From Nitrospirota bacterium (GTDB taxonomy: Bacteria; Nitrospirota; Nitrospiria; Nitrospirales; UBA8639), in NCBI GenBank assembly GCA_027623995.1, contig JAQBUF010000027.1:1-41868 (forward strand): 41,868 nt of DNA. Reading direction: 5' to 3'. Shown piece after piece: positions 159 through 40,581 of this stretch. Position 1 is the first letter of the stretch. Each line of letters begins with the position of its first letter. The position numbers were made by a program, and so were the translations under genes. Below the pieces are notes generated by a model that was not told where the DNA came from, made no database searches, and worked only from the letters and a program-made list of their open reading frames with translations.

Positions 159-1817
159 ATGATTTTTTTAATGGAAAATTTTTTTATCAGAGTCTACCAA
201 TCGGATTGGGGGCGAGTCGGCCTTCTTGTTTTCGCTGGGCTGCTCTCGTTTACCTACAATCTTCATATCAGCCTTTTGGAAGGGACCGAGGGCTTGTATG
301 CCCAAATCACGAGAGAACTGGTTGTGTCTCAGGAATATTTTCGGCTCACGCATCTCGGCGAACAGTATATCCAAAAGCCTCCTTTTTATTTTTGGATGCT
401 CAGTGGTTGGACTCAAGCCTTCGGTGAGAATGAAATCACCCTTCGTATGACCAGTGTGATCTTTGCCTTGGGCACCATGTGGCTCACCTATGTACTTGGC
501 AAGACCCTCTTTTCCTCGCAAGTGGGATTTTGGGGCGCCTTAGTTGTCGCCACGAATCACGTCTTTCTCTGGTATGGGCGACGTGTCCTTATTGATTCGA
601 CCCTGACGTTTTTCATGACACTCGCAATTTTGAGCGTTGTCTTAGGTAATCGAAAGGGTGCAACCTCCTTTTGGTTTTTTGTGGCGTGGATAGGCATGAT
701 CCTCGCGTCTATGGTGAAAGGGCTTCATGGGTTTGCACTACCGCTGGTGCTGATTATCACCTATGCCCTTTGGCAAAAGGATTTCAGAATTTTTAAAAGT
801 CTCTGGTTTTGGTTGGGGGTTGGATCCTATTTCGTCGTCATAAATCAACTCTATTATGTACGAGATCCCTCCTTTCAATGGCATTTTGATTGGCAAGCCA
901 GACTCGCAGAGGCGTTTAATGTTACAAAAAATAAAAGTAGCAGTGGCAGTATTAAGTTCTACTGGTATCTCTACATGCTATGGTTTGATTTTTTTCCATG
1001 GAGCTTTCTCATTCCCAGCAGCTTGATATTTTTGATATCCAAACGACCTTTCCGGGAGTATTCCGGGGAACATCTCCTTGGGCTTTGGTTTCTCGGGTTC
1101 CTGTTGATCATGTGCAGTTCTCGATTTCGACGAGAACCCTATCTCATGCCCTTAGTCCCGGCCTTAGGATTGATCATTGGATATTACCTAACCGAACTCT
1201 TCTCCACAGCCCGTGTCCCATGGTGGCATCGAAAACTGAATGTTGCCGCTTTTGGAGTTCTGTCTGGATTCTTTCTCCTCATCTTAGTGGGAGGACCATT
1301 TCTCCTTCATAGAAAATGGAACGTACCTCTGGATGTCTTTCCTCTTCCCTATGTACTGATCATCGTATCCCTTTGCGGAACCCTCATATGGGGAACATGG
1401 AAGGAAAAGATTCCGGTGATGTTTACCACGCTCATTGGAGTGGCCTTGGGATTCACCTTGGCTATTGTGCAGTTTCTACTTCCAGCCATCGACCGAACCA
1501 GTTCCCCGAAATACGTAGCAGCCCAAGTTCGAGCCTTTGCAGCATCCAATCATTTTCCAATGTATTATTACGGCATTACACAGGAAGATTTCTCTTTCTA
1601 TCTTAATGGCTCCCCAGCCATTCCTCGACTGAAAACCCAAGAAGAACTTTTCACTCTCGCCCATGCAAACCAAATCCTTCTGGTCACGGATAATGAAGAT
1701 GCCGAAGCTCTGGCCAAGAGAAATGATCTCATCATCAAAACTTTGAAAGAATATCCCCAACCACGAGAAAGGAACTTCCTAATCCTCTCGATTGCTCATA
1801 CTCCAAAAGGTACGTAA
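159..1817 (+). CDS. GT39/ArnT-like membrane glycosyltransferase
   Basis: A 552-aa polytopic inner-membrane protein that probably transfers a sugar from a polyprenyl-phosphate carrier to an envelope acceptor such as lipid A, glycan or protein. The N-terminal hydrophobic helix is followed by an acidic periplasmic loop motif, EGTEGLYA (residues 41-48), and KPPFYFW (73-79). This arrangement is typical of the PMT/ArnT clan, where the acidic residues bind metal and lipid-linked sugar. Around ten further hydrophobic segments follow, then a soluble C-terminal stretch from about residue 450. A second in-frame ATG lies at 171, and neither start has a convincing ribosome binding site. The acceptor cannot be told from sequence. 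The gene stands alone here, but LPS genes lie elsewhere in the window. Family call is fairly safe; substrate is unknown. Confidence 0.8.
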   Translation: MIFLMENFFIRVYQSDWGRVGLLVFAGLLSFTYNLHISLLEGTEGLYAQITRELVVSQEYFRLTHLGEQYIQKPPFYFWMLSGWTQAFGENEITLRMTSVIFALGTMWLTYVLGKTLFSSQVGFWGALVVATNHVFLWYGRRVLIDSTLTFFMTLAILSVVLGNRKGATSFWFFVAWIGMILASMVKGLHGFALPLVLIITYALWQKDFRIFKSLWFWLGVGSYFVVINQLYYVRDPSFQWHFDWQARLAEAFNVTKNKSSSGSIKFYWYLYMLWFDFFPWSFLIPSSLIFLISKRPFREYSGEHLLGLWFLGFLLIMCSSRFRREPYLMPLVPALGLIIGYYLTELFSTARVPWWHRKLNVAAFGVLSGFFLLILVGGPFLLHRKWNVPLDVFPLPYVLIIVSLCGTLIWGTWKEKIPVMFTTLIGVALGFTLAIVQFLLPAIDRTSSPKYVAAQVRAFAASNHFPMYYYGITQEDFSFYLNGSPAIPRLKTQEELFTLAHANQILLVTDNEDAEALAKRNDLIIKTLKEYPQPRERNFLILSIAHTPKGT

Positions 1818-2036
1818 TTCCCATGACATATCACCCTGTCAACTCGATCAACAATAAGTGCTAAATTTTCATTTTTTTATGTCTTTACGCTAGGCAGCGG
1901 TCAAGAATAACGGCAATAAACCGATAGAGATGTATAGCAAGTGTTAATCTCCGAGGTAACAAACTCTTAAAATACATTGCCCACTAGTCCAAAGAAAATG
2001 GATTAGTATTGAATATTTGAGGAGAAAAAATTTATC

Positions 2037-2462
2037 GTGTTGCACACCACGAAAAAAAACCCATCAGTTGCGTCTACGGGAACCGGGGTCGCAGTTAATG
2101 AAGATAACAGGAAATGTCCGAGATTCACTATTCCTCGTGGCATCCCAATCAAAACCGAAGTTGAATCGATGAGTCGGATTTTGCGATCCTGTAATTGCGT
2201 CAACATTGGAGCAGAGGGAGTCCTCTTAGATTTTGGAGAGGACAAATGTCCGGAAATGCCCGTACAAAGTAAATTATTTGTCATTATTCAATTAGCAGGC
2301 GAAACGGCGAAACTCCCAGGTATTGTCCGGCATCGCTATGGAAACAAACTTGGGATCTTCTTTCCCATTGCCGACGACCCCAATTTCGAGGAAGAACGAA
2401 AAGTTTTTGCCATCATCCTTCGAACACTTGAGCGCGGCATTCAAAGAAGAACTGGACGATAA
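2037..2462 (+). CDS. PilZ-domain protein
   Basis: A 141-aa cytoplasmic protein resembling a stand-alone PilZ domain, the family that binds cyclic di-GMP and passes the signal to motility, polysaccharide or secretion targets. The N-terminal arginine motif RKCPR (residues 25-29) fits RxxxR. The second motif, NIGAEG (56-61), matches (D/N)xSxxG except that Ser is replaced by Gly. The rest is a beta-barrel-like sequence with VRHRYGNKLGIFF near 105-117. The start is a GTG at 2037 with GAGGAG at 2019-2024, a slightly long spacing. The Ser-to-Gly change may weaken ligand binding, so c-di-GMP binding is likely but unproven. Confidence 0.7.
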   Translation: MLHTTKKNPSVASTGTGVAVNEDNRKCPRFTIPRGIPIKTEVESMSRILRSCNCVNIGAEGVLLDFGEDKCPEMPVQSKLFVIIQLAGETAKLPGIVRHRYGNKLGIFFPIADDPNFEEERKVFAIILRTLERGIQRRTGR

Positions 2463-2679
2463 CCTTTCCCCCCACACCAACAGTCTCTTCATTTCCTCCC
2501 ACCAGATGAAGTACCCCTGAAAATTTTCGACAAACTCATTTCCCAGTAATACCTCGCATCCTGGCAAACCTGAGACTCTCCTCCTTTCGCTCATCTAAAA
2601 GTTTATGGTAGGCTCATTTCTCAGGTGCCACAGCGCTTGAAAATTCATAAACGACCAACTGAAAGATTAGAGACATATC

Positions 2680-3456
2680 ATGGTATTTTTGAGGACATTG
2701 CCCACAGTCGCCGTATTTTTCGTGTCCCTGTTCATTGTTCAACCCAGTTATGGGTTCCCTAACAGTTCATACGCCTGGACAAATCTTCAATGGGAAAGTC
2801 GCTGCGCCAAAGCACAAACCTCTTTCAATCCACATGATGCACTCAGCAATACTCAGCTCTCCATTACGACCAAAGATCAGCGCTTTGTCGATTTTCTGTA
2901 TTGGGTGTGGGCCAATAAGATCACCGAGCATCAAGTCGAACAGGTCGGAGGGACAGAATGGGATGGCCCCACCAACGGCGTCATCTTTCACTGGGCACCT
3001 GGATCACGTTGGGAAATGCATACGGTAGTCCCATTCAAACATGCCATTCATCACATTGCCGAAGAGCATAATTGGGTCGATACCATGTTCAGTGATTTCT
3101 TCGACAAATTCGGGAAAAGTACAGGGGCAAGTATCGCCGCACGATTATCTGGCGATAAAGCCCCAACCTGGGCCATGTTCCTCAAACACATCGGCGGTCC
3201 TGAAAGCCCGTACTATCGATACGTGTTTCATCAAGAAAGTTATATCGATACCATAAGCCAAAAAGTCATCATGGTCGGAGGTCAAGGGGTCGAATTCCAT
3301 TATTCCTACGACCGCTACATGCACGAAGTCAAAGAAGTCCTCACCGATTGCAAAGCCTTTCAATTTTTCCAACTCTACGACCAATACGGCCAAGGCTTCG
3401 CCTCAAAATTAGGCTGGGCTGGTCAAGCCCTCCCCCACTCACAAACCCACGAGTAA
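2680..3456 (+). CDS. Secreted protein of unknown function
   Basis: A 258-aa protein that I do not recognise. It begins with a clear signal peptide: a hydrophobic core over residues 4-21 and a likely cleavage after PSYG (about residue 25). The mature part is rich in aromatic residues and His, with stretches such as FHWAPGSRWEMHT and HAIHHIAEEHNW. Two Cys remain in the mature part (near residues 42 and 230) and could form a disulfide. No catalytic signature is evident. It is flanked by the PilZ gene and, after a 0.5-kb gap, a PEP-CTERM gene, neither of which explains it. Codon use and composition look like those of a real gene. Confidence 0.6.
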   Translation: MVFLRTLPTVAVFFVSLFIVQPSYGFPNSSYAWTNLQWESRCAKAQTSFNPHDALSNTQLSITTKDQRFVDFLYWVWANKITEHQVEQVGGTEWDGPTNGVIFHWAPGSRWEMHTVVPFKHAIHHIAEEHNWVDTMFSDFFDKFGKSTGASIAARLSGDKAPTWAMFLKHIGGPESPYYRYVFHQESYIDTISQKVIMVGGQGVEFHYSYDRYMHEVKEVLTDCKAFQFFQLYDQYGQGFASKLGWAGQALPHSQTHE

Positions 3457-3990
3457 AAGCCACACAACACAAATTCGTTCAGTGCCCCAAAACGCATGGC
3501 ACGGGCATTTCTGCGTTGAACTCCTTGTGGAGCAACACTGTCAGGAGCGGCTTTGTACCAACAGAAGGTACTGGCATCAGAGTACAACCTACACTTCAGC
3601 AATCGACCTTACTTGCCCCCTCGTCTTCGACTCTTGTCCGAAAACCAATTCACACCAACGAGGAGCAATACAGACAAAAAATGTCGGCATTTTTTACAAC
3701 TGTTAAAAGACGTTCAACATGTCCCTAACCATATGATTTCAAATAACTATTGATAACTATATTCATCACCACGTCGGAAATGACTAGTGATACCGTAAGA
3801 ATATTCGACGATTACTATTTACAAACCACATTACTCAAAAGAGGTATACCGTCATCCAGGTCGTAAAAATCCCTAAATCTTTTCATACGTTAGGAAATTC
3901 AAATGTCATGTAAAAAAATTGGCACCTTGATTGCTATGTATTACAGGAGTCCTCAAACATTTTTTAACTTTTATTGAAGGGAGCCGTGTC
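3457..3990. other. Intergenic stretch, no gene seen
   Basis: About 530 bases between the secreted protein and the PEP-CTERM gene. Only short overlapping open frames of atypical composition occur, and I see no good start site for any of them. The last part (about 3720-3980) is AT-rich and probably holds the promoter and leader of the PEP-CTERM gene, but no clear -35/-10 pair stands out. Confidence 0.4.
3976..3983 (+). promoter_or_regulatory. Ribosome binding site deciding the PEP-CTERM start
   Basis: GAAGGGAG, 7 bases before the ATG at 3991. It selects this start over the ATG at 3931. Confidence 0.7.
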
Positions 3991-4656
3991 ATGCTACACA
4001 CAATTCAGAAGACCAAACGCACACCTCTCATCGGCGTGCTCCTAGCCGCCGCTCTGACGGTAGGCTCAGCCATTCCAGCCCAAGCCCTGGATTTTGGGTT
4101 CGAATTCTCAAACTTTTTCGGCAATACCAATGGCACCGTCACCGGTCGCATTCTCGGTCTTCAAGACAACACCTCCAACCAAGCCGCATCCAGCGTTATT
4201 ATCGATTCAATTCCTGGAATTTTTTCGCCAATTGGTTCTGTGCCATCCCCTGGTGGCTTTGGAAACGACGTATTGACCTGGACAGCATTTTGGGTCAATA
4301 ATTTTTCTGTCATGAATGGCGCTATCACGTTATATGACGTCCGCACAGCAACGGGAACTGGAGGCCAAATATTTCACCTTTCAACGACCTACCTGAATGG
4401 AGTTGGTTTCTTAGGTGAGGATATTGACCAAGATGGATTTGTCACTTTAGAAGAAAACGCTGAAGACCTCTGGTTAGATACCGATCTTGTTGAAATCACC
4501 TCACTCGATGGATCGAACCCTACCTCAAGCGTTTCATATAGTGCCATTGCCGGTATCCTGACTCCTTTTCAACCAGTCCCTGAACCGAGCACAATGCTCC
4601 TCTTGGGTAGCGGTTTGGCTGGCATCATTGCCTGGCGCACACGCAAGATTAATTAA
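3991..4656 (+). CDS. PEP-CTERM sorting-domain exported protein with EF-hand loop
   Basis: A 221-aa exported protein. It has an N-terminal signal peptide (hydrophobic 13-27, cleavage around AQA at 30-32) and a C-terminal PEP-CTERM tripartite tail: VPEPST (196-201), a hydrophobic helix GSGLAGIIAW, and the basic end RTRK. Such tails are processed by exosortase/EpsH systems that deliver proteins to the surface or exopolysaccharide. A canonical EF-hand calcium loop, DIDQDGFVTLEE, lies at 144-155. I place the start at the ATG at 3991 because GAAGGGAG (3976-3983) sits 7 bases before it. An earlier in-frame ATG at 3931 adds an implausible 20 residues ahead of the signal peptide. No exosortase is in the window. 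Confidence 0.85.
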   Translation: MLHTIQKTKRTPLIGVLLAAALTVGSAIPAQALDFGFEFSNFFGNTNGTVTGRILGLQDNTSNQAASSVIIDSIPGIFSPIGSVPSPGGFGNDVLTWTAFWVNNFSVMNGAITLYDVRTATGTGGQIFHLSTTYLNGVGFLGEDIDQDGFVTLEENAEDLWLDTDLVEITSLDGSNPTSSVSYSAIAGILTPFQPVPEPSTMLLLGSGLAGIIAWRTRKIN

Positions 4657-4688
4657 GCTAGTAACTTCGACAATCAGAATTCAATTCG

Positions 4689-4721
4689 ACCACCCCATAC
4701 AAAATGTGTGGGGTGGTTTTT
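4689..4721 (+). terminator. Rho-independent terminator after the PEP-CTERM gene
   Basis: A perfect 9-bp stem (ACCACCCCA at 4689-4697 with TGGGGTGGT at 4709-4717) is closed by an 11-base loop and followed by a short T-run. It lies 32 bases after the stop codon. Confidence 0.85.
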
Positions 4722-4739
4722 AATTTCCTATTGAACGCC

Positions 4740-4943
4740 TTAGGCGCGGCGGAGCCCCCTTACCGAATCCGACTCTTTGGCGAAGACTGTCTGATCAGAG
4801 CGAGTTTCTGAGCCATCTTGATTCGGTAAGGGGGCGGAGTTCACCCGTAGGGACGCGCACGGGCAAACATGGTTTTGGGTCCTTTTGCCGAAACAAAAGG
4901 ACCTCGTCGTGCGGGCGCGAAAGTCCGCCTCTAATAAACACAA
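4740..4943. repeat. Structured intergenic element with two inverted repeats
   Basis: A G+C-rich stretch unlike its AT-rich flanks. It has a perfect 16-bp inverted repeat (4754-4769 with 4820-4835; arm GCCCCCTTACCGAATC) and a perfect 10-bp one (GGTCCTTTTG at 4878-4887 with its complement at 4894-4903, 6-base loop). A 67-aa open frame exists on the minus strand, but its composition looks like translated repeat and not protein. From memory, similar intergenic sequences occur in many unrelated bacteria, so it may be a dispersed element or a structured RNA. Function is unknown. Confidence 0.55.
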
Positions 4944-5030
4944 CCGCAGACGTTTTTAGGCACCCTCAAACTAAGATTATTACCTTCCCTTTTGCTTGCT
5001 CCAACCCCTCGTTCATGCGACACTTTCAGG

Positions 5031-5981
5031 ATGGAATCATCCCCTATTTCTCATCCCGCCCTCACACATCGTTTATATTGGGGGCTCGCCATTAACGCGG
5101 TGATTATTCTTGCGGAATTCTCTGGCGGGTACTTCAGTAACAGCATCGCCTTAATGAGTGACGCCGGACACAATCTCATCGACCAAGGCTCCTTGTTTCT
5201 CGCGTTGTACGCGCATGTGCTTGCCGCTAAGCCGGCCACAGAAGAGCGGACCTTTGGCTATCATCGAGCTGGCATCCTCGCCGCATTTGTCAACGGATTT
5301 GTTTTGTTAATCACGGCGGGGGTTCTGGGGTATTTCGCAGTCACTCGACTGTTCACTCCCGTTTCAGTACTCGGGGATTGGGTGATTGGTATTGCCGTCG
5401 TGACGTTTTTAGCCAACCTGGCAGTCGCCTTTTTACTTCAAGCCGGCGCAAAAAATGATTTAAATATTCGCGGGGCATTTTTGCACATGCTGGCCGATGC
5501 CTGGGTCTCGCTAGGAGTGGTGCTGTGTGGAGTTGGAATTCTTCTGAAAGGCTGGACTTGGCTCGATCCTCTGATAAGCGTGATCATTGTAGGAATTATC
5601 GTGAAAGGGGCTTGGCCAATTTTTCGAGAATCTTTGGAAGTCTTGCTAGAATCAACACCACCAGGAATTAAAACTGCGCATGTCGTAGAAGCGATCGAGC
5701 AGATAGAAGGCGTGGACAATGTTCATGACTTGCATATTTGGGCCGTGGAACCACGCCTAATTATGCTCACCTGTCATGTCATGGTGAACCAAAACAGCAC
5801 GCATATAAAAGACGAAATGCTCGCAACGATTCGATCAACTGTCGCCTCTGAATTTGGGATTCACCATTTGACGATTCAACTCGAAACTGAATGTGGCCAT
5901 ACCGATGGTCGACATTGCGATTTAAACCAACTTCCCACCCGATCTGGCCACATCGCTTCTCACCACGCCCATTCGCATTAA
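5031..5981 (+). CDS. Cation diffusion facilitator (CzcD/ZitB-type Zn/Cd/Co exporter)
   Basis: A six-helix inner-membrane antiporter of about 316 aa that exports divalent metal from the cytoplasm in exchange for protons. The transport-site motifs are both present: SDAGHNLID in helix 2 (H47, D51) and HMLAD in helix 5 (H152, D156), the His/Asp set of zinc-type CDF proteins. The cytoplasmic C-terminal domain carries the DLHIW signature, and the protein ends in a His-rich tail (HIASHHAHSH) that may bind metal. The ATG at 5031 is preferred; a TTG at 4992 would add 13 residues. It converges on the PAP2 gene with only 5 bases between stops. Confidence 0.9.
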   Translation: MESSPISHPALTHRLYWGLAINAVIILAEFSGGYFSNSIALMSDAGHNLIDQGSLFLALYAHVLAAKPATEERTFGYHRAGILAAFVNGFVLLITAGVLGYFAVTRLFTPVSVLGDWVIGIAVVTFLANLAVAFLLQAGAKNDLNIRGAFLHMLADAWVSLGVVLCGVGILLKGWTWLDPLISVIIVGIIVKGAWPIFRESLEVLLESTPPGIKTAHVVEAIEQIEGVDNVHDLHIWAVEPRLIMLTCHVMVNQNSTHIKDEMLATIRSTVASEFGIHHLTIQLETECGHTDGRHCDLNQLPTRSGHIASHHAHSH

Positions 5982-5986
5982 TCGAC

Positions 5987-6538
5987 CTATTGCGACCCAA
6001 GGAACGCTTCTTGTCGAAAACATTTCAATCGGATCACAAAATAACCAAGAGCCATTCCTAGCATCACGCCTAATCCCCAGCCAGCCAGCACATCCGTTGG
6101 ATAATGAGCGCCAAGATAAACCCGAGATATTCCTACCAGGATCATCATCACACCAACCACCCACCGTGTTGAGGGAAACACCACCCATAAAAATGATGCA
6201 GCCGTCGCCGAATTGAATGCATGATTGGATGGCATACTGAAGGACCCGCCACAACCTACTAATTCATGCATGTTGAGGAACACCTGACAGGGACGAGGTC
6301 GCGCGAAAAATAGTTTGAGCTGCATGCCGATGAAGTCACTCATGCCAATGGCTGCCCCTAACCCTGCAGCAGCCAACAGACCTTGCTTCCAATTGCCCCA
6401 TGTTTGATAGGCTAAATACGCCAACGCCAGAAACACAAAATTTCCGGAATTGGAACATTCCAACATGAACCAATCCAAGGACTCAGACTGCCTGGCCCAT
6501 CCATTGACCGCATAAAATATTTTTGTATCCCAATCCAA
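5987..6538 (-). CDS. PAP2-family membrane phosphatase
   Basis: A 183-aa membrane phosphatase of the PAP2 (type 2 phosphatidic acid phosphatase) family. It probably acts at the periplasmic face on a lipid phosphate such as undecaprenyl pyrophosphate or a lipid A phosphate. All three catalytic motifs are visible: KLFFARPRP (K75-P83), PSNH (103-106, with Asn where Gly is usual) and SRVYLGAHYPTD (S138, R139, H145, D149). Four to five hydrophobic helices surround them. It faces the CDF gene tail to tail. The substrate cannot be assigned from sequence alone. Confidence 0.88.
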   Translation of the reverse strand: MDWDTKIFYAVNGWARQSESLDWFMLECSNSGNFVFLALAYLAYQTWGNWKQGLLAAAGLGAAIGMSDFIGMQLKLFFARPRPCQVFLNMHELVGCGGSFSMPSNHAFNSATAASFLWVVFPSTRWVVGVMMILVGISRVYLGAHYPTDVLAGWGLGVMLGMALGYFVIRLKCFRQEAFLGSQ

Positions 6539-7946: not shown

Positions 7947-8063
7947 CGCACCTAACACGCTAACGAACACACCCTACACTGTCAAACTCAGCGCTTCAGC
8001 CAGTTTCTGTCTTGACAATACCCCCATCATCTGAGAAAACAAAAAGAAAGTCCCTCATCAACA

Positions 8064-29984: not shown

Positions 29985-31067
29985 ATGCGAATCCTAGACC
30001 GTTATATTTTCAAAGAGCTGATGATCCCCTTTACCGTCAGCCTGGGGGCACTGTGCTTTATAGTTTTCACGAAAGAAATGCTGCGTCTCGTTGAGCTGTT
30101 GGTCTCAAAAGGGGTGGGGATCATGCCGGTCCTCAATATTGTCGCTCATCTCATGCCTTCGTTTCTTGTTCTGACCCTACCTATTGCGTGCCTAGTGTCT
30201 TCCATTACCGCATTTGGGCGACTTTCTTTTGACAAAGAACTCATCGCCATGAGAGCTGCCGGGATTAGTTTGCTACGTATTGCATTCCCAGTCTTCGTGT
30301 TTTCATTTATGGTGTTTCTACTCACGATTTACCTCTCCCAGTGGGGACAACCGTGGTCAAACGTCTCGCTGAAAAAATTAGCCATTAGCCTGGTCAAGGA
30401 TCAGCTCACCTTAGCTCTAGACAAAGGGGTGTTTAACGAACCAACCAAAGGCATGATGATTTACGTCCCTGAGCCGGAGAAGGGGAAAAAAGCCGAAGGC
30501 ATTTTTATTGCTGATCAACGCGATCCAACAAAACCGTTTATTGTGACTGCCAAAAATTTCAGCATGCTCCATGACCCCAAACAAAAACAGCTCGGCTTTC
30601 GGCTTTTTGAGGGCACAATCCATTCGTTCCCCAATGATATTACGCAGCATCACCAAGTAACCTTCACGACCTATGACCTCAAGATGGCTCTCCCCGACAC
30701 CTTCAACACGACGAAGCCGGGACGAAAAGGCTACGACTATCTCATCCAACAACTCGACGAATCGGGATGGCGAGATACCAATTCACTCCGACGACTCATG
30801 GAGTATTACAAGGACTTGGGATTCCCCGTGGCCACACTCATTTTAGGGGTGCTTGGGCTTCCCGTGGGAATCGTCTCAAAACGATCAGGCCGAATGGGAG
30901 GTTTTGCCGTTGGCATTCTGATCATGGTGGGATTTTATCTATTAAATGTCGTCGGTGAATTTCTCGTGACCACCCTCATTCTTCATCCCTTTGCGGGGGC
31001 TTGGTTTCCTAACGTCATTTTGTTACTCATCACCTGTACTCTCTTTTACCGAGCCAGTCGACATTAA
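29985..31067 (+). CDS. lptF: LPS export permease LptF
   Basis: A 360-aa inner-membrane permease of the YjgP/YjgQ family. With LptG and the LptB ATPase it extracts LPS from the inner membrane for transport across the periplasm. It has the expected plan: three N-terminal helices, a large periplasmic beta-jellyroll (about 120-245) and three C-terminal helices. It begins MRILDRYIFKELMIPF, and LPIACLVSSITAFGRLSFDKELIAMRAAG is the typical coupling-helix region. The stop TAA is directly followed by the lptG ATG with no gap. I assign LptF and not LptG by order in the pair. Confidence 0.9.
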   Translation: MRILDRYIFKELMIPFTVSLGALCFIVFTKEMLRLVELLVSKGVGIMPVLNIVAHLMPSFLVLTLPIACLVSSITAFGRLSFDKELIAMRAAGISLLRIAFPVFVFSFMVFLLTIYLSQWGQPWSNVSLKKLAISLVKDQLTLALDKGVFNEPTKGMMIYVPEPEKGKKAEGIFIADQRDPTKPFIVTAKNFSMLHDPKQKQLGFRLFEGTIHSFPNDITQHHQVTFTTYDLKMALPDTFNTTKPGRKGYDYLIQQLDESGWRDTNSLRRLMEYYKDLGFPVATLILGVLGLPVGIVSKRSGRMGGFAVGILIMVGFYLLNVVGEFLVTTLILHPFAGAWFPNVILLLITCTLFYRASRH

Positions 31068-32159
31068 ATGGGCATTCTGTTTTGGTACATTCTTCGGCAT
31101 TATTTGAAGATCCTGGTCATGTGCATGACGGGTTTGACCTCAATTTATCTCATTATCGATTTTTTTGAAAAACTGAGGAGATTTCTTCGGCACGATGCGG
31201 AACTCTCTTCGATGTTGATGTATTTCTTCTTTAAAATCCCGGACATTTCCTTTAAACTCGCTCCGTTTGCCGCATTAATGGCCTCACTTCTCGCCATTGG
31301 CATGTTGAATAAAAATCATGAAATTACCGCCATGCGAAGTTGCGGGTTTAGCCTGTTTCATATTGCCGTGCCCTTTTTATCCGTGGCGGCTCTGTCAACC
31401 GTCGTACTATTTGGTTTTACGGCGATCTTGATTCCCTTGGGCAATGCTAAGGCTGAGCAAATCAAAACCGTCGAAATCCAAAAAAAGCCGCGCCCCTTGG
31501 CCTTTACTGCGGAGAATCTCTGGCTTCGGATCCAGAACAATACCATCATGAATGTCAAAAATGTTTCTCCCGACGGTACACAACTTCACACGATTCGACT
31601 GTATCGGCTTGATACAGGCTTCAAACTTAATCAAGTCCTTTCAGCAGACACGGTCGATTACACCGCGAAGGGTTGGACATTGAAAAACGTCGTCAAACGC
31701 TCCATGACGCTTAAGGGACCGATCAAGGTCATTCAACTCGACGAACTTCCCTTAGAGCTTTCCTTGACACCGGAAGATTTAGAAACGTGGATTTCGTTGG
31801 AGCCCGAACACATGACTCTGATCCAGCTGTGGGAGCATATCAAGCATTTGAAAAATGAAGGGCATAATATCACTCGATTCCTCACTGACTATTGGGGGCG
31901 CATTGCCTTTTCGTTTGTCACCTTCATCATGACCATTCTTGGATTATCACTTGGACTTCATGGTCTGGGGGCCAGGTCATCGAGTGTGGCCAAGAGCATT
32001 GGCCAAGCCCTGGGTATAAGTTTTTTGTTTTGGACCACCCATTCGGTTGGCATTTCCCTAGGACGTAGTGGTGCACTGGCGCCGGTAATCGCTGGATGGA
32101 TCGCCTGTTTCATGTTTCTCGCCGTCAGCCTGAATTATATGCTGAAGGTACGCTATTAA
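31068..32159 (+). CDS. lptG: LPS export permease LptG
   Basis: A 363-aa partner of LptF with the same plan: helices near 10-35, 50-80 and 95-120, a periplasmic domain (about 125-270) and helices at the C-terminal end. KNHEITAMRSCGFSLFHIA is the family's cytoplasmic coupling motif. It starts on the base after the lptF stop, so the two are translated together. The LptB ATPase is not in the window. fabF follows after 66 bases. Confidence 0.9.
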   Translation: MGILFWYILRHYLKILVMCMTGLTSIYLIIDFFEKLRRFLRHDAELSSMLMYFFFKIPDISFKLAPFAALMASLLAIGMLNKNHEITAMRSCGFSLFHIAVPFLSVAALSTVVLFGFTAILIPLGNAKAEQIKTVEIQKKPRPLAFTAENLWLRIQNNTIMNVKNVSPDGTQLHTIRLYRLDTGFKLNQVLSADTVDYTAKGWTLKNVVKRSMTLKGPIKVIQLDELPLELSLTPEDLETWISLEPEHMTLIQLWEHIKHLKNEGHNITRFLTDYWGRIAFSFVTFIMTILGLSLGLHGLGARSSSVAKSIGQALGISFLFWTTHSVGISLGRSGALAPVIAGWIACFMFLAVSLNYMLKVRY

Positions 32160-32225: not shown

Positions 32226-33485
32226 ATGGCACCAAAAGTTGTAGTCACGGGTCTCGGCATTGTCACCCCCATCGGCATTGGGCTTAATCAATTTTGGAAT
32301 GCGGCCATTGAAGGACAATCTGGCATTTCAAAAATTCCGTCATTTGAAGGCCTGCCCATTGATGCCTATCGGTCTCGCATCGCCGGACAAATTCATGATT
32401 TTAACCCACTCGACTATATTGATGAAAAATACGCCAACCGTGTTGATCGCTATGCCCAATTCGGATTAGTCGCCGTAAAAGAGGCCTTAGAGGATGCCGG
32501 GATCGACATGGAACAAGAAAACCCCGATCGCGTAGGAGTCATGGTTGGAGCAGGCATGGGTGGGATGATGATGGGCGAGCGGGAAATTTCGCATCTCTAC
32601 GATACCAAAAAGCCAAATCGCGTACATCCAAATTTTATTCCTGCCATTACCCTGAACTCTGCATCTGGAATTATTGCCATGGCCTTTGGAGCCAAAGGTC
32701 CCAACATCACTATTTCCACGGCCTGCTCATCCAGCATTCATGCCATTGGGCAAGCCTTGAATACCATCCGTATGGGGAAAGCCGATATGATGATCGCGGC
32801 CGGAGCTGATGCCAGTATTACCCCATTGGTCTTCGCAGGATTTTGCTCGCTCAGGGCGTTGTCCAGCCGATACAATGAACAGCCAACCCAAGCCTCACGC
32901 CCCTTTGATCGAGGTCGCGATGGGTTTGTCATGGGTGAAGGAGCCGGGGCCTTAATCTTAGAGACGCTCCAACATGCCAAACGCCGTCGTGCAAAGATCT
33001 ATGCCGAAGTCGCAGGGTATGCGTCGACCAGTGAGGCCTATCATATGGTGGTTCCGAAAGAAGACGGAGCCGAAATGGCCAAAACCATGAAACTCGCACT
33101 GGACGATGCCCAACTACGACCCGCCCAGGTTGATTATGTGAATGCCCATGCCACCTCAACGACGGTGGGAGACGACGTCGAAGTTCGTGGCCTTCGCCAT
33201 CTGTTTAAAAGTCGCGCCAATAAATTGTTGATCAACGCGACTAAGTCGCTGGTTGGCCATACATTGGGTGCTGCCGGGGCCTTGGGAGCCATCACCTCCA
33301 TCATGGCTATGCAGACAGGGATTGTGCATCCCACCCTGAATTTAGACGATCCAGATCCAGAATGCCATTTGACCGGCATCTCCAACCAAACCCAAGAAGG
33401 CAAAATTAAGGTCGCCATGACAAATGCATTTGGATTTGGTAGCAATAATGGTGTATTGATTCTCAAACGTTATTCGACTCGATGA
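32226..33485 (+). CDS. fabF: 3-oxoacyl-ACP synthase II
   Basis: A 419-aa thiolase-fold condensing enzyme that elongates acyl-ACP with malonyl-ACP in fatty acid synthesis. The catalytic triad is C167 (STACSSS), H308 (NAHATST) and H345 (KSLVGHTLGAAG), with K340. The spacing and the C-terminal NAFGFGSNNGVL motif are standard for FabF. Unusually, the ACP gene follows and does not precede it. The upstream sequence has only a weak AAAGG at some distance from the ATG. Confidence 0.93.
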   Translation: MAPKVVVTGLGIVTPIGIGLNQFWNAAIEGQSGISKIPSFEGLPIDAYRSRIAGQIHDFNPLDYIDEKYANRVDRYAQFGLVAVKEALEDAGIDMEQENPDRVGVMVGAGMGGMMMGEREISHLYDTKKPNRVHPNFIPAITLNSASGIIAMAFGAKGPNITISTACSSSIHAIGQALNTIRMGKADMMIAAGADASITPLVFAGFCSLRALSSRYNEQPTQASRPFDRGRDGFVMGEGAGALILETLQHAKRRRAKIYAEVAGYASTSEAYHMVVPKEDGAEMAKTMKLALDDAQLRPAQVDYVNAHATSTTVGDDVEVRGLRHLFKSRANKLLINATKSLVGHTLGAAGALGAITSIMAMQTGIVHPTLNLDDPDPECHLTGISNQTQEGKIKVAMTNAFGFGSNNGVLILKRYSTR

Positions 33486-33612: not shown

Positions 33613-34161
33613 ATGGCAGTAGAGTCCTCAATTGGCAAACAAATTCGAGAAGTCCTGGCCACATCACTTCGACGAGACCCCTCGTCGATCAAACCGGAAC
33701 ATTCCCTTCGAGAGGACCTCGGCTTAGACTCCCTCATGACCTTTGAATTGTTATACGATTTAGAAAAAGCGTTTGATATGGAAATTCCCAATGACGACCT
33801 CCCTGGGCTACTCACATTAGATGACGTCGTGAAGTATGTGGAAGGCCGAGTCAATCCCAGCGCCAAAACCTCTACACCAAAGTCAACAGCGAAAACACCC
33901 GCTGCGGCCAAACTATCGAAGCCCGCCACACCAACCAAAGCGAAGAAGACACCTGAAGCCACTCAAGCCAAGCCTAAGCCCAAAGCAAAAGCTGAGATAC
34001 CAGCCAAGGAAAAAAAATCTACGGCCACGGAAAAAGCCAAAGCCACATCGCCCACAACAAAACCCCGGTCCACGTCAGCATCGACCAAACGAGTCGCAGC
34101 GACTACCGCCGCCACCAAGAAACGCACGGCAGCGGCCACACCCAAAGCGAAAAAGAAATGA
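33613..34161 (+). CDS. Acyl carrier protein with long basic Lys/Ala/Pro-rich C-terminal tail
   Basis: A 182-aa protein. Residues 1-80 are an acyl carrier domain with the phosphopantetheine site LGLDSLM (Ser40) and helices typical of AcpP. From about 82 to the end are roughly 100 residues of Lys, Ala, Thr, Pro and Ser with almost no hydrophobics, resembling histone H1-like or AlgP-type tails. Ordinary ACPs are about 80 aa and acidic, so this tail is unusual. The frame has no internal stops. AAAGGA lies 9 bases before the ATG. The stop overlaps the lpxD start as ATGA (34158-34161), implying translational coupling. It may serve lipid A acylation, but that is inference. Confidence 0.85.
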
Positions 34162-35237
34162 GCCAACCTGGCACCACTAGCATTTCCCTCAACGACCTTG
34201 CTCAAGCCATAGGAGTAAAACTATATGGTCAAGGTAATATTTCAATCACAGGCGTCAATAACCTTGAAGGCGCAAAACCAGGAGACCTGGCCTACCTCGC
34301 ACACCATCGATTTTTAGAGCAAGCCAAACAGTCACAAGTGTCCGCTCTCCTCGTTTCCAAACCTTATGACGAGCTGACCATTCCGCAATTGATCAGCGAC
34401 AATCCTCAATTTGATTTCATTCAATTGAGCAATCGTTTTTTCCCTATACCCCTGCCATCCAGGGGAGTAGCCCAAGCGATTTCGAAGGGAGAGAATGTTC
34501 GGATAGGTTCGGACGTGTCGATTGGTCCATTCGTCACTCTAGGCCATCGAAACACCATTGGTGATCGAGTGACCATTTATCCTGGAGTATGTCTGGGAAA
34601 CGATGTCAGTATTGGAGAAGATTCCATTGTCTATCCACACGTAGCCATTTTAGATCGCTGTGAAATTGGAGCCCGTGTCGTCATCCATGCTGGAACCGTC
34701 ATCGGAAGCGATGGGTTTGGTTACATCCAACACAAAGGGGTCAATCACAAAGTCCCTCATCGCGGGAATGTGAGAATCGAAGATGATGTGGAAATTGGAG
34801 CAAATGTCACCATTGACCGGGCCACCTTTGGATGCACACTTATTAAACGTGGGACGAAGATCGACAACCTCGTTCAAATCGCCCACAACGTAACTATTGG
34901 GGACAATTCCATTGTAGTGGCTCAAGTAGGCATTGCCGGGAGTACCACCATCGGACAACAAGTCATGATTGGTGGAAAAGCCGGGCTGGTCGATCATCTG
35001 ACCGTTGGGGATCACGCAAGAATTGCAGCTGGAGCCTCGGTGCTAAGAAATGTTGAGAAGGGAACGACAGTCGGAGGAGGAATTCCAGCCTTACCGGCGG
35101 AGGCCGCACTGAAAAGGCAGATATTAATTGATCGGCTACCAGAAATTCGTCAGGAGCTTACCGAGCTTGAAAAACGCGTGCAGGCCATCGAGGGCAAACC
35201 ACGCAAGACCAAAACACGGAAGACAAAAATTTCGTGA
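34158..35237 (+). CDS. lpxD: UDP-3-O-acylglucosamine N-acyltransferase
   Basis: A 359-aa trimeric enzyme that transfers a 3-hydroxyacyl chain from ACP to the 2-amino group of UDP-3-O-acylglucosamine, the third step of lipid A synthesis. The N-terminal UDP-binding domain (about 1-100, with [12 protein letters not shown]) precedes a left-handed beta-helix of hexapeptide repeats. [35 protein letters not shown] and [12 protein letters not shown] carry the expected His residues. A basic helical tail closes the protein. It overlaps the tailed ACP gene by 4 bases. lpxA, fabZ and lpxC are not in the window. Confidence 0.94.
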
Positions 35238-35375: not shown

Positions 35376-35918
35376 TCACTTTTTATTAGGACGCCCCGTC
35401 GGAGGGATGACCTTGTGCCAAGTAAATAATTTCCCCCAAAAGAATCCTGCCCATGGGAGAAAAAATGCCGCCACATAATCCAACGATCCGGTGGAGAAGC
35501 ACCAGGCGGACAACCCAATTAACCCAGCCATTCCCAAGAAATACAACAACGGCATCATGATTCGCCCGGGATGATCGAGTTCAACTTCAGCCGGCAGCTT
35601 TTTTTGTCGATTCGGACTCCGCGAAGAGGCAGACTTCATTCGGGATGCAAAAAACCATGGGTATTTGTGGAGAATATAGCGGTGGTATCGTGTCTGGCTC
35701 CAACCTAACACAATGCCGACCACAATCAACAACGAACTTTTTGCAAACGTCCATTCATCATACGTCTCGATGATCAATTGATACACCAGCGCAACAAGAC
35801 CCACCACCATGGTGATCAATCCCAACACTCCTGACGGGAAGAGAATATAGGTCTTTATATAGACATGAGACTGCTCAACTTCGTTTTCTTTTCGTTTAAC
35901 CGTAATCACCTTACTCAT
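35376..35918 (-). CDS. Hypothetical four-helix membrane protein
   Basis: A 180-aa protein I do not recognise. It has two hydrophobic hairpins: helices at about 25-47 and 59-75, then at about 118-138 and 145-165. Between them is a basic, Ser-rich cytoplasmic loop (SRMKSASSRSPNRQKK). No enzyme motif is evident. It lies 34 bases downstream of the yacG-like gene on the same strand and may be co-transcribed with it. Its stop lies 138 bases from the convergent lpxD stop. Confidence 0.6.
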   Translation of the reverse strand: MSKVITVKRKENEVEQSHVYIKTYILFPSGVLGLITMVVGLVALVYQLIIETYDEWTFAKSSLLIVVGIVLGWSQTRYHRYILHKYPWFFASRMKSASSRSPNRQKKLPAEVELDHPGRIMMPLLYFLGMAGLIGLSAWCFSTGSLDYVAAFFLPWAGFFWGKLFTWHKVIPPTGRPNKK

Positions 35919-39188: not shown

Positions 39189-40581
39189 GAGCTATTGTCA
39201 AATCTGGTGTCTGAGGCGTTGGTTACGCGGCGACGGGTTCGTTCATTGTGACTTCTATTCCATCTGTAAATTGCACCCCCTTCATCACCAAAGCCAACTG
39301 CCGGAATCCCCTCAGTCGTCGCCAGGTTTGTTCCGCACAGCGGCCGAGCTTGAACATCATGTGTAACATCCCATCCCGCGTCAGACAGCCTTTGGTGCGC
39401 TTCGTTCGGTGCCGGATCGTGCCAAAGGTTGATTCAATGGGATTCGTGGTGCGTAGACTTTGCCAGTGTGCCGCCGGAAACGCATAGAACGTGAGTAAGG
39501 CCTCTCGATCTTTCTCAAGGCAGGCCGTCGCCTTCGGGTACTTCGCTTCATAGGTCGTCAGAAACACCCCGAACGCTCGGTTCGCATCGGCTTTGGTCGC
39601 TGCCTGCCAGATCTCGTGCAGCGCCTGTTTCGCTTTGGGCTGCACGCTCTTCGGCAAGGCATTGAGGACATTCCGAGTTTTATGCACCCAACAGCGCTGC
39701 GGCTGAGTGGTGGGGTAGACTTCCTCCAATGCGCCCCAGAATCCCAGGGCCCCATCGCCAATGGCGACAGTCGGGGCCTTCATGCCGCGGGCCTTGAGTG
39801 GGAGCCCCGTACCTCTCGCCAACTTTGCGTCGACTCCCGCACCCCATCTTCGATGGCTAAGAGCTGCTTCTCCCCCTGGCTCGTGACCCCGATGACCACT
39901 CACGCACAGAGCCGTTGGTCGTCAGCTCGAAGCCCGCTGTAAATCCCGTCAACCCAGACATACACCCAAGTCTCCTCATCAAGGCGTTGCTGGCGCCACG
40001 TCTGGTACTCCGTTCGCCAGGTCTGCTTTAACCGCGCCACCGTACTGGCCGAGAGGCCTTTGGCCTCCGGACCCACTAAGGCTTCCAAGGCCGTCTGCAT
40101 CTCGCCTGTCGAAATGCCTTGCAAATAGAGCCACGGAATCGCCGCTTCCAGCGTGGCCGATTTCCGTACATACGGCGGTACCAACGCAGAGTGAAAAGTG
40201 ACCGGCGGCCCTTGACGACTGCGCACCTTCGGGACTTGGACCGACACCGGGCCCAGGCCTGTTTGAATCTCCCGCTCAGGATGATGCCCACTGCCAACAA
40301 CCATAGCTCGCCCCTGCTCATCCTGCTGATCCGCATACTGCGCTAATAATTCGGCTCGCTCTGCCTCCAAGGCCTGGGCCAGGAGCTGCCGGGCACCGGT
40401 TCGAAGTAACTCGGTTAACGTATCTCGGCTCACTGGTTCTTCTGATGGTGGTTGGCTATCCTCTGGCATCGTGGCGTCTCTCCTTTTTGGTGGTTGATCT
40501 AAGGATGTCTTGCAACACCCATTTCAACCCGAGACGCCGCGTCTTTTCAACTCACCCAAACACCACTTTCAACTATAACTC
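39189..40581 (-). mobile_element. IS256-family element A (1393 bp), nested in B
   Basis: The terminal inverted repeats match well over about 27 bases: the left begins GAGCTATTGTCAAATCTGG and the right, read inverted, begins GAGTTATAGTTGAAAGTGG. A perfect 9-bp target duplication CATGAAAAA lies at 39180-39188 and 40582-40590. IS256 elements typically duplicate 8-9 bp. The single transposase gene is on the minus strand and broken. Confidence 0.88.
39223..40469 (-). pseudogene. IS256-family (mutator) transposase of element A, broken
   Basis: The start MPEDSQPPSEEPVSRDTL at 40469 has AAGGAG upstream. The N-terminal half is intact to VYVWVDGIYSGLRADDQRLCA, containing the first catalytic Asp. Then comes an in-frame TGA at about 39900, where family members read Leu before VVIG. 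A frameshift near 39800 follows in the stretch between QSWREV and GLPLKARG. The rest, with GDGALGFW (second Asp), RCWVHKTRNV and NPIESTF (Glu), is in the shifted frame and ends at 39223. Two lesions make it inactive. Similarity to the B transposase is clear but moderate. Confidence 0.9.

Follow-up and report, generated by a model that had tools for sequence, protein, structure and literature searches.

What is an acyl carrier protein (ACP) with a long, strongly basic tail for, and does it serve the lipid A gene whose start codon it overlaps? ACPs are known as small, acidic, diffusing proteins, and the gene described here departs from that picture in one half of its length. The window, a 41,868-nucleotide stretch of a Nitrospirota genome, includes the following features:

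29985–32159, + strand: lptF and lptG, LPS export permeases upstream of the fabF2-ACP cassette (TIGR04407 and TIGR04408, over cut-off)
32226–33485, + strand: fabF2, a second beta-ketoacyl-ACP synthase II (TIGR03150 fabF, 529 bits over cut-off)
33613–34161, + strand: ACP gene with basic C-terminal tail, 182 aa
33613–33852, + strand: acyl carrier domain, residues 1–80, net acidic
33730–33732, + strand: Ser40 codon, predicted phosphopantetheine attachment site
33853–34158, + strand: basic tail rich in Lys/Ala/Pro/Ser/Thr, residues 81–182
34158–34161, + strand: ATGA shared by the ACP stop and the lpxD start, read from the sequence
34158–35237, + strand: lpxD, acyl-ACP-dependent N-acyltransferase of lipid A (TIGR01853, 349 bits over cut-off)
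35190–35234, + strand: basic C-terminal tail of LpxD (15 residues), past the part that aligns with solved LpxD structures

The protein belongs to the PP-binding family (PF00550) on both its score, with a Pfam match over residues 10–76 (E 2.3e-12, 47.4 bits against a cut-off of 20.8), and its conserved DS-motif serine. This serine, in the motif LGLDSL, is residue 40 and showed no variation in two alignments, of 17 and 36 sequences; the ACP is expected to be phosphopantetheinylated at this predicted site. An AlphaFold2 model generated from the 36-sequence alignment gave four helices at a pLDDT of about 90 and, beyond about residue 84, no to almost no predicted secondary structure (pLDDT 47–60). 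In the window the carrier domain has a pI of 4.4 and the tail a pI of 11.0. The first-pass annotation, made from the DNA letters, had described a normal ACP domain with Ser40, a basic tail of about 100 residues and a 4-base ATGA overlap with lpxD, and all three descriptions held; the –4 overlap recurs in many relatives, with short positive spacing in others.

The same annotation had argued that the tail was not an artefact and had proposed looking for it in related genomes. From 119 distinct ACP sequences gathered, 114 were Nitrospirales orthologues, and every one of these 114 carried the tail, in frame and basic, with a length of 18–102 residues (median 39); the roughly 100 residues first reported are correct for the window and represent the long extreme of the range. 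The net charge of the tail was +5 to +25 in all 114 and that of the carrier domain –3 to –12, with Lys/Arg and Asp/Glu totals in the tails of 1444 vs 92. Tail composition was dominated by Lys (24%), Ala (19%), Ser (15%), Pro (13%) and Thr (10%), with few hydrophobic residues, and its sequence was poorly conserved and without a conserved motif over a five-fold range of lengths while the charge was kept. As a charge control, the last 20 residues were scored in 377 ORFs, from the window and 400 kb of a same-genus genome; only 13/377 showed a net charge of +6 or more, placing the ACP tail beyond chance, and four of these 13 were the tailed ACP and LpxD in both sampled genomes.

Values of dN/dS from 34 independent close pairs were 0.29 for the tail and 0.07 for the carrier domain, one pair containing locus L156, whose frameshifted-looking tail would if anything raise the tail value. 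These ratios indicate that purifying selection acts on the tail and, together with the 114 in-frame orthologues, rule out a frameshift or artefactual origin. Harmless low-complexity drift, in which the tail would have no specific target, could account for the highly variable length and poor sequence conservation, and GlmU is among a few other proteins that have variable basic tails; it is nevertheless very improbable, given the charge retained in 114/114 orthologues and a dN/dS value that would be unexpected under neutral drift. At the level of sequence, then, Nitrospirales carry a second, specialised ACP made of an acidic domain and a predicted disordered, strongly positive tail. Opposite charges on domain and tail in every orthologue would also suit a tail that folds onto the acidic domain of its own protein, or contacts acidic regions on partner proteins, and thereby tunes enzyme docking. 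This explanation appears improbable, since the tail is unstructured in the predicted model and varies in length without a conserved motif. Separately, the ACP tail ends in L156 and L163 were non-basic and out-of-frame-looking, probably through assembly or sequencing errors, and the GlmU C-terminal tail was basic in some Nitrospirales and acidic or neutral in others (L210 and L211 of G001, L218–L247).

A check for a second, ordinary acpP, also proposed at the outset, found a 76-residue AcpP in a fabD-fabG-acpP-fabF cluster of the window's genome, so the tailed ACP is an additional carrier and not the housekeeping one. The two share the same domain, the serine attachment motif and the predicted fold, but the tailed ACP falls below the TIGR00517 equivalog cut-off (60.9 vs 70.45 bits) and bears the tail of 18–102 residues.

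The enzyme partner of this additional carrier can be sought in the gene upstream, fabF2, which ends 127 bases before the ACP start. FabF2 orthologues were separated from housekeeping FabF by score (>620 bits vs <416), with the exception of a contig-end fragment in G002. Near their C-terminus they have FGFGSNN, as against FGFGGVN in the housekeeping FabF of the window's genome, and the active-site Cys context is TACSSS in the window FabF2 vs TACATG in the housekeeping enzyme; FGFGSNN and TACSSS look like subfamily signatures of FabF2. Across 60 relatives, which are linked by descent and so do not represent independent events (although genus g4 holds both states), the tailed ACP and FabF2 were jointly present or jointly absent with two exceptions: in G030 the tailed ACP is kept and fabF2 is cut down to a short remnant, and in G011 (L084) fabF2 is present with masked sequence (N) directly after position 8027. 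In several g4 genomes fabF2 and the ACP are missing together from between lptG and lpxD, and lptF-lptG-lpxD are directly consecutive in the cassette-negative g4 genomes and in G003; cassette-negative relatives thus retain lpxD. In G055 the cassette lies away from lpxD, the next gene on the contig being another gene on the opposite strand. As the ACP gene is gained and lost with fabF2 and the cassette is separable from lpxD, the closest partner of the tailed ACP is FabF2, with lpxD a frequent neighbour. We infer that FabF2 is its enzyme partner, and the tailed ACP is very probably a working carrier paired with it.

In an alignment-based scan of public contigs, the named loci among the best 80 listed were nearly all from Nitrospira or other Nitrospirota MAGs, and the Synechococcus matches among these 80 had no tail. 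A single-sequence scan of public genome contigs with the tailed ACP returned none of the relatives that the alignment-based scan did find, and a plasmid search with the ACP gave ordinary ACP domains only. FabF2 orthologues were present in 47 of 198 genomes of the phylum that were searched, all 47 belonging to the same order; judging by the named relatives, the window's genome is a member of Nitrospirales. In the Rokubacteria MAG locus L105, outside the phylum, a gene for a FabF with 63% identity to FabF2 precedes that of an ACP whose 14-residue end contains no Lys/Arg, and LpxD was not found at this locus. This single data point suggests that the FabF-ACP pair is older than the tail. The surroundings of the L105 pair (within 1679–6231) encode a second ACP, a KAS III-like enzyme and a putative methyltransferase, names read off the translations.

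The lipid A side of the locus offers a second basic tail. In 94 of the 104 loci from relatives, the last 20 residues of LpxD had a charge of +4 or more, and ACP tail charge and LpxD C-terminal charge were weakly correlated (Spearman 0.35, n 104, ancestry not corrected for). Several relatives without the tailed ACP also have a basic LpxD tail, so the presence of one tail does not strictly go with that of the other. In E. coli, ACP docks on the C-terminal domain of LpxD by electrostatic interaction (PMC6286764). Direct contact between the ACP and LpxD tails is unlikely because both are basic and would repel each other, and we infer that a shared anionic surface fits the two tails better. A rival proposal is that the tail binds nucleic acid, ribosomes or polyphosphate, which would couple lipid synthesis with the nucleoid or with translation. 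The Lys/Ala/Pro composition of the ACP tail, which we take to resemble that of histone-H1-like tails, is compatible with such a target, yet every linked gene belongs to envelope or fatty-acid functions and the neighbouring LpxD is basic-tailed as well, which makes nucleic-acid or polyphosphate binding quite improbable.

The membrane may instead be the target of the tail, an assignment that we hold tentatively: being poor in hydrophobic residues, with Pro at about 13%, the tail fits an electrostatic, not an inserting, contact. Basic tails are absent from LpxA and FabZ, two further users of acyl-ACP; this was counted against a lipid A destination with a tethering tail, and a general basic-tail trait of lipid A enzymes was rejected on the same observation and because GlmU has such a tail in some species only. 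The LpxD acyl pocket was also considered as a sign of a cassette-linked change in chain length. At the aligned pocket position nearly all Nitrospirales LpxD have Gly, whether or not the cassette is present, and the window's LpxD has Ser (residue 294), against Met in a proteobacterial reference and Gly in Chlamydia LpxD. This residue may indicate a deeper acyl pocket where Gly or Ser is present, but it does not discriminate between genomes with and without the cassette and was set aside as such a sign.

Taken together, the reading that we prefer, with a probability of about 0.4, is that the FabF2-ACP pair feeds lipid A acylation and that the tail acts as an electrostatic tether, binding an anionic surface that is most likely the inner membrane. 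FabF2 and the tailed ACP would form a dedicated chain-elongation pair, in which the acidic four-helix domain would carry acyl chains as usual, by phosphopantetheine on Ser40. The disordered polycationic tail would keep the carrier near an anionic surface, with the cytoplasmic face of the inner membrane as the likeliest candidate, and the tailed ACP would probably hand hydroxyacyl chains to lipid A synthesis via LpxD. LpxD, with its own basic tail, and the later lipid A enzymes would act at that membrane surface.

Lipid A, taken separately, is slightly favoured as the destination of the acyl chains, and the case for it is circumstantial because lpxD persists without the cassette and the G055 cassette lies away from lpxD. 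These two observations, together with the Rokubacteria pair, whose neighbours include a KAS III-like enzyme and a second ACP and at whose locus LpxD was not found, would also suit a pair that makes a special fatty acid for a use other than lipid A, its site before lpxD being mostly a conserved operon position. Such a use seems somewhat unlikely in view of the fabF2-ACP-lpxD order, often with the 4-base overlap, which nearly all loci show and which holds over about 100 loci from two families; the full lptG-fabF2-ACP-lpxD order is repeated in G018 (L083). The first-pass annotation had suggested a dedicated carrier for lipid A acylation. The usual gene order speaks for this, whereas the tracking of fabF2, the retention of lpxD without the cassette, the G055 arrangement and the tail-less Rokubacteria pair speak against it, and a dedicated lipid A role is at most a likely one. 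A more elaborate version, a class of membrane-tethered ACPs, is unlikely as a whole; in it the tail evolved by Nitrospirales would gather the carrier, LpxD and what the condensing enzyme makes at the inner membrane, and lipid A acylation would draw on an acyl pool kept apart in space from the cytosolic AcpP pool.

Two known systems invite comparison. AcpM, the mycobacterial meromycolate extension ACP, is likewise a type II ACP whose four-helix domain continues into a flexible extension at the C-terminus (PMC6151718), and its carrier domain aligns with that of the tailed ACP (1klp, E 6.6e-10). However, the 1klp alignment ends at about residue 86 with no relation detected between the extensions, the tailed ACP scores 40.7 bits against a cut-off of 146 with the NCBIfam AcpM model NF040636 and so falls outside that family, and it adjoins lipid A genes whereas the context of AcpM is mycolic acid genes. 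In rhizobia and Agrobacterium, the dedicated carrier AcpXL is encoded in a cluster with FabF enzymes of its own and with a gene for a lipid A acyltransferase (PMC11901934). The Nitrospirales locus resembles it in that a dedicated ACP adjoins a fabF of its own and an acyltransferase gene for lipid A (fabF2-ACP-lpxD), but has one fabF and lpxD without fabZ, dehydrogenase or lpxXL, the neighbours of the cassette in the window being lptF, lptG and lpxD; it also differs in the basic tail on the ACP, a feature not described for AcpXL in the literature searched. No lysine-rich or basic-tailed ACP was found in a literature search with thin coverage of subscription journals, and the initial impression that the architecture had no described precedent stands within that literature. 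The clade-wide basic-tailed ACP belongs fully with neither AcpM nor AcpXL.

A tailed ACP with fabF2 and lpxD would make the idea of separate, localised acyl pools (lipid A vs phospholipids) testable. This is of relevance for Nitrospira, which are major nitrite oxidisers and include comammox bacteria, and whose envelope biosynthesis is apparently little studied. Two further genes of the window lie beyond lpxD on the – strand: a conserved protein (35376–35918) with no Pfam or NCBIfam match, which follows lpxD in many relatives, and part of a Mutator-family transposase (39900–40469).
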